Origin: Desulfoplanes formicivorans
Lineage (GTDB): Bacteria; Desulfobacterota; Desulfovibrionia; Desulfovibrionales; Desulfomicrobiaceae
Reading direction: 5' to 3'
Assembly (NCBI RefSeq): GCF_001748225.1
Contig: NZ_BDFE01000017.1
Location: 186,001 to 250,000 of the forward strand
Length of the DNA: 64,000 nt
Shown: piece after piece, positions 42,919 to 46,104 of the stretch
Layout: each line of letters opens with the position of its first letter
How positions within the stretch are numbered: position 1 is the stretch's first letter
Program-made: the position numbers and the translations under genes
The notes under the pieces: model-generated
The model's database searches: none
What the model saw: only the letters and a program-made list of their open reading frames with translations
Told to the model about the DNA's origin: nothing

Positions 42919-43194
42919 ATGAACAAAAGTGAACTGATTAAAACAGTGGCAGAAGAAAACGATATCTCCATGGATGAGGCCGTTACGGTTGTGAACACCT
43001 TTTTTGATTGCATCCGGGAAGAACTTTTGCAGGGAAACCGGGTTGAAATCCGCGGATTCGGCAGTTTCAAAATTAAGGAATATGAAGGATACAAGGGCCG
43101 CAATCCCAAGTCTGGAGAACAGGTAGAGGTCAAACCCAAAAAACTTCCCTTTTTCCGTCCAGGCAAGGAACTCAAGGAATTTCTGAACAAGTAG
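42919..43194 (+). CDS. HU/IHF-family DNA-binding protein
   Basis: A 91-residue dimeric nucleoid protein. The family signature GFGSFKIKEYEGYKGRNPKSG and the arm residues GRNPKSGEQVEVKPKKLPFFRPGK, split here around its Pro, are intact. It bends and compacts DNA. AGAGGA lies before the ATG. Its own AT-rich promoter region separates it from the MinD-like gene. HU and IHF beta cannot be firmly told apart here. Confidence 0.93.
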   Translation: MNKSELIKTVAEENDISMDEAVTVVNTFFDCIREELLQGNRVEIRGFGSFKIKEYEGYKGRNPKSGEQVEVKPKKLPFFRPGKELKEFLNK

Positions 43195-43209
43195 CCTCGG
43201 CCCCCTCTT

Positions 43210-44121
43210 ATGCGTGCATTACGAATTCCTGTCTGGCTTTTTCTGCTGGTTCTGACCTTCTTTCAGCCCAAGGCATGGGCAGAACCAGCCCTGACCATTC
43301 TTTACACTGCCAATTCCTGGGGCCACTACCGGCCCATCAAAGCCTGACAGGGAAAAGCCATTGGGGGCATGGCCCGGCGGGCCACCATCTTCTCCAAATA
43401 CGATCAAGCTGACACCCTACGCATTGCAGGGCCGTATGAGTTGGCACAACGGGATCCCGTACACCCCTGGGATCCCCAACGTCTCAAACTCTTGATTAGA
43501 GGTTATCAACGTCTCGATTATCACCTCGGTGTTCTCGGGCCATCGGAAACAAGGGCCATGTCCATGCTTTCGGACGTACAACCCGATACATGGTTCCAGA
43601 TGGATTCTCATCCCCGGGTCCATTCCCTGCCCACGCGCAGGGGGCTGGTCCTGGCCGTGATTTTTCCTGCTCTCGACACGACTAAGGAGCCTTTACCCCC
43701 ATCCATGAGCAGGGAACTCGTCACCACGCTGACCAGCCTCAGAAAGAATCATCCCAAGGCCCTGATTGTGGGCATCAGTTCCTGGGGCAGACAGCATGAA
43801 CGCCGATTTGTCGATCAGCATGAGGGACTGTGTGACATTCTTCTGGGAAGTGGTCCCGGTTCCGGCCTGACATCGACTCTTTCGACCCATGCCAGGACCC
43901 TTTGGACCCGGGCCTTTACCAAGGGAAGGACCGTGAACAAAATGACCATCAAGGAGTTTCCCTCACCGAACAGCTCATTTCACTGGCAGACCGGGCGGAA
44001 CATTGCCGTCAAGCTTGTGGTCCTTGACGACAAGATCCAGAACAACCCCGCCATGGAGGCCATCCTGGCACCGCTCGACACACCGGCAGCACACGGCAAA
44101 ACCTCATCGTGCGGCCAATGA
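43210..44121 (+). CDS. UshA-like protein with in-frame TGA, probable selenoprotein
   Basis: Read through one TGA (43345-43347, codon 46), this is a 303-residue periplasmic protein. It has a signal peptide (PVWLFLLVLTFFQPKAWA) and the metallophosphatase-like start ILYTANSWGHY; after the TGA come QGKAIGGMARRATIF and VVIGI-like strands including GISSWGRQHERRF. Both sides of the TGA belong to one protein family in the same frame, as known for UshA-like (seleno)proteins of delta-proteobacteria. A hairpin just downstream could act as SECIS. If the codon is not decoded as Sec, the gene is a nonsense pseudogene. It starts 15 bases after the HU gene. Confidence 0.75.
43345..43384 (+). promoter_or_regulatory. 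UGA codon with SECIS-like hairpin
   Basis: The TGA at 43345-43347 is followed by TGGCCC (43370-43375), a GGC loop and GGGCCA (43379-43384). A competing shorter stem is GCCAT (43357-43361) with ATGGC (43369-43373). Distance to the loop and a G at its start fit bacterial SECIS elements, but the match is by eye. Confidence 0.5.
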
Positions 44122-44328
44122 GCCCACGTGCCCTTCATGTTGCAATCCTTTTCTGATACCTTGTCCGCGCACAGGCATCGCTCTTGCCTTCCCATCGGTT
44201 ACCAGGTCCCCCGCTTGTTGACGCGCATGCTCAAATGCGCGGGGAGTTCAACCCATGGCAGCTTCGGCTGATGCGTTTGTTCACGGACCAATCATCACCT
44301 CAACCTTTTCCACGCAAAGGAATTCAGT

Positions 44329-45183
44329 ATGCGCACATCACCGGAAAAGGCCATTGCCTTTTATAAAATGCAGGGCAGTGGCAATGACTTCATACTTGTT
44401 GATAACCGCTATCTCGGCCTGCCCACCGAGGTCATGCCCCATTGGGCCAAAGCCTTGTGTGCCCGTGCTTTTGGCATTGGTGCCGATGGCCTCATTTTCA
44501 TCGACAAGGCCCCGTCAGGTGAACAGGTCGATTACAGGTGGCATTTCTACAATGCTGATGGTTCCAGGGCTGAAATGTGCGGCAACGGATCACGATGTGT
44601 GGCCCGGCTGGCCTTTGAACTGGGCATTGCCGGCCCAAACCAGGTATTCATGACAGATGCTGGCCCCATACAGGCACACATCATTGAACAAACCGGACAC
44701 ATCAAGGTACAGCTTACCCGACCCCAAGATCTCAAGCTCAATATCTCCCTTGCCATGGATACCGGGGAAGCCATGCAGGTCCATTTCGTCAACACCGGAG
44801 TGCCCCACACGGTGGTGCTTACCGACCATGTCAAGGCCATCAACGTGCTTGATCTCGGGAACACCATCAGGTTCCATGACCATTTCGCCCCCAACGGAAC
44901 CAACGTGAATTTTGTTCAGATAGAGGACCTGGACCATATACTCTTGCGCACCTATGAGCGGGGGGTTGAAAATGAAACCTATGCCTGCGGTACCGGGGCC
45001 TGCGCGGCTGTCTATGTGGCCCATGCCCTGAGAAAATGTTCCGAGCATGTATCCGTAACCACCTCTGGCGGAGAAAAACTTGTTGTCCACCTTGAAAATG
45101 ACGACATCTTCCTTCAGGGTGACGCCGTCATCGTGTATACGGGAAGCATGAATCCGGAAACGTTCGGCCTCACGGTCGGCTGA
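44329..45183 (+). CDS. dapF: Diaminopimelate epimerase
   Basis: A 284-residue enzyme that converts LL- to meso-diaminopimelate for lysine and peptidoglycan. The two catalytic cysteines lie in EMCGNGSRC and YACGTGACA, the pattern of an active PLP-independent epimerase; the N-terminal KMQGSGNDFI is typical. dapA follows 42 bases later. The gap before the gene (44122-44328) shows no other gene. Confidence 0.95.
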   Translation: MRTSPEKAIAFYKMQGSGNDFILVDNRYLGLPTEVMPHWAKALCARAFGIGADGLIFIDKAPSGEQVDYRWHFYNADGSRAEMCGNGSRCVARLAFELGIAGPNQVFMTDAGPIQAHIIEQTGHIKVQLTRPQDLKLNISLAMDTGEAMQVHFVNTGVPHTVVLTDHVKAINVLDLGNTIRFHDHFAPNGTNVNFVQIEDLDHILLRTYERGVENETYACGTGACAAVYVAHALRKCSEHVSVTTSGGEKLVVHLENDDIFLQGDAVIVYTGSMNPETFGLTVG

Positions 45184-45225
45184 ATCATGTCTCCATCCTT
45201 CAATCAGCCTTAACAGGAGGAATCC

Positions 45226-46104
45226 ATGGAATTCAAAGGCGCATTGACCGCCCTTGTGACCCCCTTCAAGAATGAAGGTATTGATGAAGACGCCTACCGG
45301 GCCTTCATCGAATGGCAGATCGAATCGGGCATTGATGGCGTGGTTCCCTGCGGAACCACCGGCGAATCCGCCACATTGAGCCACGACGAGCATAAAGAGG
45401 TCATTCGCATCTGTATTGATCAGGTCAAAAAACGGGTCCCCGTTCTGGCGGGCTCCGGTTCCAACAACACCCGGGAAGCCATCGAGTTGACCAGATTTGC
45501 CAAGTCGGCCGGAGCCGACGGGGCGCTGATGATCACCCCCTACTACAATAAACCCACCCAGAACGGGATGATCGCCCACTTCAAGGCCATTGCCAGCGAG
45601 GTTTCCCTGCCCATGGTCGTGTACAACGTTCCGGGAAGAACCGGGACCAATCTCCTGCCTTCGACCCTGGGTCGCATGGCCCGGGAAATTCCCACGGTCA
45701 TCGGGGTCAAGGAAGCCACCGGGGACATGAAACAGGCCGCCAGAATCGTTGAGGAGTGCGGAGAAGACTTTACCCTGCTCTCGGGCGATGATTTTACCAT
45801 ACTTCCCTTTCTGGCCCTTGGGGGCAAAGGGGTCATCTCGGTCATCTCCAATATCGAACCCGCCAAGACTCATGCCATGTGTGCGGCATGTCAGGCCAAC
45901 GACTGGAAGACCGCCAGGGCCCTCTTTTATGAACTGGCCCCCCTCAACAGGGCCATGTTTCTTGAATCAAACCCCATTCCGGTCAAGACATCCGTTGCCC
46001 TCATGGGCAAAATGGAGCCAACCCTGCGTTTGCCCATGACGCCTCTTTCTGTCGAACACCTGGCAACCCTCAAAACCGTTCTCAAAGAACACCAGCTCAT
46101 CTAG
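45226..46104 (+). CDS. dapA: 4-hydroxy-tetrahydrodipicolinate synthase
   Basis: A 292-residue TIM-barrel enzyme that condenses pyruvate with aspartate semialdehyde at the start of the diaminopimelate/lysine branch. The Schiff-base Lys is in VIGVKEATGD (about 162), the catalytic Tyr in VVYNVPGRTG (about 134) and the GTTGES loop near residue 44. The ATG follows AGGAGG. It forms an operon with dapF and ends at a strong bidirectional terminator. Confidence 0.95.
   Translation: MEFKGALTALVTPFKNEGIDEDAYRAFIEWQIESGIDGVVPCGTTGESATLSHDEHKEVIRICIDQVKKRVPVLAGSGSNNTREAIELTRFAKSAGADGALMITPYYNKPTQNGMIAHFKAIASEVSLPMVVYNVPGRTGTNLLPSTLGRMAREIPTVIGVKEATGDMKQAARIVEECGEDFTLLSGDDFTILPFLALGGKGVISVISNIEPAKTHAMCAACQANDWKTARALFYELAPLNRAMFLESNPIPVKTSVALMGKMEPTLRLPMTPLSVEHLATLKTVLKEHQLI

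Follow-up and report, generated by a model that had tools for sequence, protein, structure and literature searches.

Is the in-frame TGA near the start of a UshA-like gene of Desulfoplanes formicivorans read as selenocysteine (Sec), and, if so, which thiol would resolve Sec in a protein that lacks the cysteine usually found beside it? The gene lies in a 64,000-nucleotide stretch of the genome (here, the window), where an earlier note had described a frame broken by one TGA without a frame change, with a signal peptide before the TGA and family sequence after it. This description is borne out by the frame (Table 1), which occupies C17:229210-230118 in the whole genome and contains one internal TGA. 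The signal peptide was read from the sequence; the N-termini of homologues are comparable, and the protein is thus probably exported. We found no clear Shine-Dalgarno sequence in the 15 nucleotides ahead of the start codon (43195-43209). As this ATG is in the frame of the upstream HU gene and 15 nt past its stop, translation may be coupled to that of HU.

Table 1. Features of the UshA-like locus, in window positions.
Feature	Position	Strand	Remarks
HU-family DNA-binding protein	42919..43194	+	conserved upstream neighbour
UshA-like selenoprotein family 2 gene	43210..44121	+	303 residues; Sec = codon 46; final TGA 44119-44121
Signal peptide MRALRIPVWLFLLVLTFFQPKAWA	43210..43281	+	read from sequence; homologue N-termini comparable
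Sec-UGA, codon 46	43345..43347	+	PIKAU replaces the family's PCPxU
Bacterial SECIS hairpin	43370..43384	+	6 bp stem; GGC loop 43376-43378, 28 nt past UGA
Cys208 codon (EGLCDILLG)	43831..43833	+	sole other Cys between Sec and tail; alternative partner
C-terminal tail KTSSCGQ with Cys301	44098..44118	+	proposed relocated resolving cysteine
dapF	44329..45183	+	conserved downstream neighbour
dapA	45226..46104	+	conserved downstream neighbour

Of 348 genomes of the class that we searched, 186 encode the family, in most cases with a single internal TGA. Together with sequences from other genomes of the phylum, these gave 242 distinct related sequences, in which the column of codon 46 holds Sec in 214, Cys in 28 and another residue in none, as expected for the selenoprotein that the earlier note had proposed. 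In the window protein, U46 stands ahead of the GG[LM]ARR segment, as Sec or Cys does in family 2, and the homologue of the congener (46% identity over 298 residues) has its TGA at the same place. A nonsense mutation or sequencing error, leaving the gene dead or translated solely from ATG 43369, would agree with the standard open reading frame listing (table 11), which gives just a shortened frame, 43369-44121. However, the congener and 214 related sequences keep the TGA, with both flanks conserved, and both a SECIS and the Sec machinery are present; moreover, ATG 43369 encodes the M of GGMARR, a position that is Leu in most homologues, and is therefore not a start, so we consider this explanation highly improbable. 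Equally implausible is a reading of UGA as some other amino acid such as Trp, whether throughout the genome or via a suppressor, for which we found no support: the gene itself terminates at an ordinary TGA, homologues replace the UGA with Cys and never with Trp, and the genome encodes a tRNA-Sec with anticodon tca. In a few genomes (G281, G205, G050 and the second copy of G274), matches to the family are split across frames or contigs, and these copies may be decaying or misassembled.

The genome carries selA, selB, selC and selD, for which the earlier note had suggested looking. SelB scores 409.7 bits (cut-off 242) and the tRNA-Sec 82 bits, and selA and selB lie less than 6 kb upstream of the window start. 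The selD gene is itself Sec-encoding, with an internal TGA at offset 988 of L148 (C17, about 78987) and, 20 nt downstream of it, a long hairpin with a GGA loop, equivalent to the hairpin of the UshA-like gene. Within one genus (g35), the form of the protein follows the strength of the SelB match: SelB-strength matches (E<1e-90) occur in all four genomes that encode the Sec form (G179, G180, G181 and G189), whereas matches are weak in 7 of 8 genomes with the Cys form (E 8e-57 to 9e-27, except one 1.5e-55; Fisher P ~0.01, calculated by hand). Cys forms also occur in SelB-bearing genomes (G064-G066, loci L102-L104; G182, locus L084), so the change from Sec to Cys is not due solely to loss of the machinery.

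A hairpin beginning 22 nt past the TGA (TGGCCC-GGC-GGGCCA), noted earlier as a possible SECIS, is present and folds alone at -9.5 kcal/mol. The rules given for bacterial SECIS elements in PMC13188914 specify a loop of 3-9 nt with G in its first two positions, a stem of 4-16 bp, a spacing of 16-37 nt and a minimum free energy of at most -7.5 kcal/mol; with its 3 nt GGC loop, 6 bp stem, 28 nt spacing and -9.5 kcal/mol, the hairpin agrees with this model. It is more than a chance pairing: among all TGA trinucleotides of the window, just 1.2% have, at an allowed spacing downstream, a 6-bp hairpin that is as rich in GC and opens its loop with G, whereas 18% have any 6-bp hairpin of that kind. When compared with dinucleotide shuffles, the 53-nt stretch does not stand out in folding energy (z=0.28), so the structural evidence is that of comparative codon data.

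Conservation of the protein alone could yield such a hairpin, because it overlaps the codons of a conserved A-R-R-A. Two comparisons bear on this. At the two Arg codons of the hairpin, 97 of 147 Sec genes with the motif (66%) use CGG-CGG, against 5.8% expected from the Arg codons used later in these genes; among Cys genes, the count is 2 of 12. A hairpin of at least four pairs whose loop opens with G is found in 143/210 Sec genes versus 3/27 Cys genes (P=1e-8, although the P values of these comparisons do not come from independent draws, as the sequences are related). Compared with synonymous recoding, the excess of folding is moderate, with a mean z of -1.08 for Sec genes and -0.50 for Cys genes; the remaining parts of the Sec genes give -0.14 to -0.38. 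Where Sec and Cys paralogues lie in tandem, as they do in five genomes, the 6-bp stem is present in the Sec copies but missing from four of the five Cys copies. Adjoining paralogues of this kind in genus g54 (L097-L101), one CxxC and one CxxU, are a natural control for SECIS selection. On this comparative evidence, the hairpin is under codon-level selection, and this selection is specific to Sec genes. Collectively, the homologue column, the machinery (SelA, SelB, tRNA-Sec and SelD) and the SECIS hairpin, all of them checks that the earlier note had proposed, strongly support decoding of UGA codon 46 as Sec.

The selenoprotein itself is of a known kind. With its TGA read as Sec, the protein matches NF049981, the NCBIfam profile for "UshA-like (seleno)protein family 2", at 264 bits (E=1.3e-78; profile positions 1-261 of 262; curated cut-off 140 bits), but NF041198, the profile of the CxU family, at just 28.6 bits over 59 residues, far under the cut-off of 275. 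The 'UshA-like' of the earlier note holds in the sense of family 2 (NF049981, CxxU), which is distinct from the better-known CxU UshA-like family. Family 2 is already listed in PMC13188914, where its motif is given as CxxU and it is annotated in GenBank. In the literature searched, this was the one source that names NF049981 or 'UshA-like selenoprotein', and we found no biochemistry on family 2. The window gene shares with family 2 a match over 259 residues, the Sec column, the place of the SECIS and, in many genomes, the neighbours. It differs in having no CxxU cysteine and in its C-terminal Cys tail, neither of which is mentioned for this family in the passages of PMC13188914 consulted. As the CxxU motif is replaced by PIKAU in the window gene, and by PLRAU in the congener, we class the window gene as a variant and not as a typical member of family 2.

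The relation to the CxU family (NF041198 / COG0737; PMC2398784, PMC9312934) lies in the N-terminal region around Sec; unlike the window protein, the CxU relatives compared here are mostly much longer and carry extra C-terminal CxxCH motifs. The earlier description of the start of the protein as metallophosphatase-like is only weakly borne out. The one relevant relative of solved structure that we found is a weak match among the 5'-nucleotidase/UshA metallophosphatases (PDB 2z1a, E=0.32); it spans positions 1-41, with the GG[VL]ARR segment among them, but a Pfam search with the protein gave no hit, and the D-x-H motif that follows the first strand in calcineurin-like metallophosphatases is gone, the metal ligands of 2z1a (NDTH) being replaced by A-N-S-W. 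Scans of genome and viral contig collections returned no relatives; the alignment query, in which Sec was entered as Cys (TGY), was probably hampered.

The order HU, UshA-like selenoprotein, dapF, dapA spans 42919-46104 in the window and 3968-7046 of L150 in the congener, with lnt and prfB further upstream in both. It is partly kept across the taxonomic order, and an HU-like motif lies upstream in 96 of the 164 CxxU homologues with enough flank. This arrangement gives no clear hint of function.

Nearly all members of the family carry the motif P-C-P-x-U. In the window gene and the congener (G017), the partner Cys is absent, and the tails KTSSCGQ and KTSCGH instead place a Cys three residues from the C-terminus; the earlier note had missed both features. 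The same combination recurs in other partner-less Sec homologues: L091 (PEAGU, tail NNCR), L207 and L215 (SGU, tails SCGQR and FCGQKR), L209 (VHSU, tail GCGQSLRR), and L268, L269, L239 and L272 (PAGU, PVGU or PSGU, tails KGCQ, KGCK, KRCPEK and KRCLEK). What is new here is a family 2 gene without the CxxU partner and with a Cys at its C-terminal end, an exchange also seen repeatedly among related lineages. A literature search on partner loss and a C-terminal Cys in UshA-like selenoproteins found nothing, which does not prove the exchange unreported.

To compare tails, we defined short forms as those with fewer than 345 residues after Sec, and a tail Cys as one in the last 12 residues. Ten of 15 partner-less short forms have a tail Cys, versus 0/184 with a partner (CxxU 0/160, CxxC 0/21, CxU 0/3); the contrast is stable for tails of the last 5 to 12 residues and slightly weaker at 20-30. 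Longer CxU and CxC proteins were kept separate, as their C-terminal Cys often adjoins CxxCH motifs. Most long-form UshA-like selenoproteins (L211, L223, L227, L231, L253 and similar CxU homologues) have C-terminal CxxCH motifs and one more Cys close to the end, as though a cytochrome-like domain had been joined on. On a tree of homologues from which the motif and tail columns were left out, each of the five gains of a tail Cys falls in partner-less lineages, which hold 9.3% of the branch length (binomial P ~7e-6 in a naive branch-length test that ignores ancestral-state uncertainty), although two of the tail Cys, in f16 and f37, may be one event, as their tails align. An independent-pairs sign test on the short forms, which is conservative and, with its few pairs, underpowered, gave 3-4 informative pairs, all concordant and none discordant (p=0.125-0.25). 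The idea of a relocated cysteine arose from the first 3-5 cases; of the partner-less sequences added afterwards, 5/10 have a tail Cys, as against none of the partner-bearing short forms. Twenty further loci brought neither a new partner-less case nor a short form with both a partner and a tail Cys, and extending the genome search to a class of two genomes added nothing.

We favour, with a probability of about 0.6, a reading in which this is an exported family 2 selenoprotein whose partner Cys was lost in the genus and whose resolving thiol has moved to the C-terminal tail. The protein may be a metallophosphatase-like scaffold with a decayed metal site, acting as a redox enzyme in the periplasm. 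The selenolate of the protein would attack an oxidised substrate, possibly a disulfide, a peroxide or a sulfur compound, and would be resolved as a selenenylsulfide. In most members, the Cys three residues before Sec would do this; in the window genus, the thiol may come from the flexible C-terminal tail, as it does in MsrA-type enzymes and 2-Cys peroxiredoxins. An AlphaFold single-sequence model of the protein reached a pLDDT of 35, below usable quality, so the proposed pairing of U46 with C301 draws on covariation.

Sec might instead work as in 1-Cys enzymes, with the selenenic acid reduced by an external thiol or partner protein; the C-terminal Cys would then be incidental or serve dimerisation. 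A tail Cys is missing from five of the 15 partner-less homologues (L240, L278, L279, L281 and L282, four of them from one family and most with other Cys), and Sec enzymes of the 1-Cys type do exist, an example being Clostridium oremlandii MsrA, whose catalysis involves dimerisation (PMC4479559). The comparison is one of working principle: that enzyme also has an altered resolving-Cys arrangement, but it belongs to a protein family unrelated to UshA-like proteins (PMC4333827, PMC4479559). The confinement of short-form tail Cys to partner-less lineages does not readily arise by chance, and we regard the 1-Cys explanation as unlikely, though it is the most credible of the alternatives. More doubtful still is resolution by Cys208. 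This residue has a counterpart in the congener (Cys207; EGCDVLLG in L003), but some homologues with an intact CxxU (L011, L130, L136 and L109) also have a Cys nearby, and the UshA fold would place Cys208 at a strand start, with the active site at the far end, so the two are probably distant.

Relocation of the resolving thiol to the tail may extend beyond the window genus. Across the UshA-like superfamily, we consider it slightly better than an even bet that this thiol has repeatedly moved from CxxU or CxU to the C-terminal tail, converging on C-G-Q-like ends. If so, CxxU is not essential to the family that it defines. Selenoprotein searches that ask for a Cys close to Sec (CxxU, UxxC) would overlook active members. 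For the window itself, a further UGA gene, shortened in the usual open reading frame listing, is settled. As loss of the partner Cys covaries with gain of a tail Cys, direct redox pairing, and with it a redox function, is predicted for a widespread exported selenoprotein family without known activity. The repeated relocation, if true, would amount to a natural, replicated experiment on the rewiring of a Sec active site.
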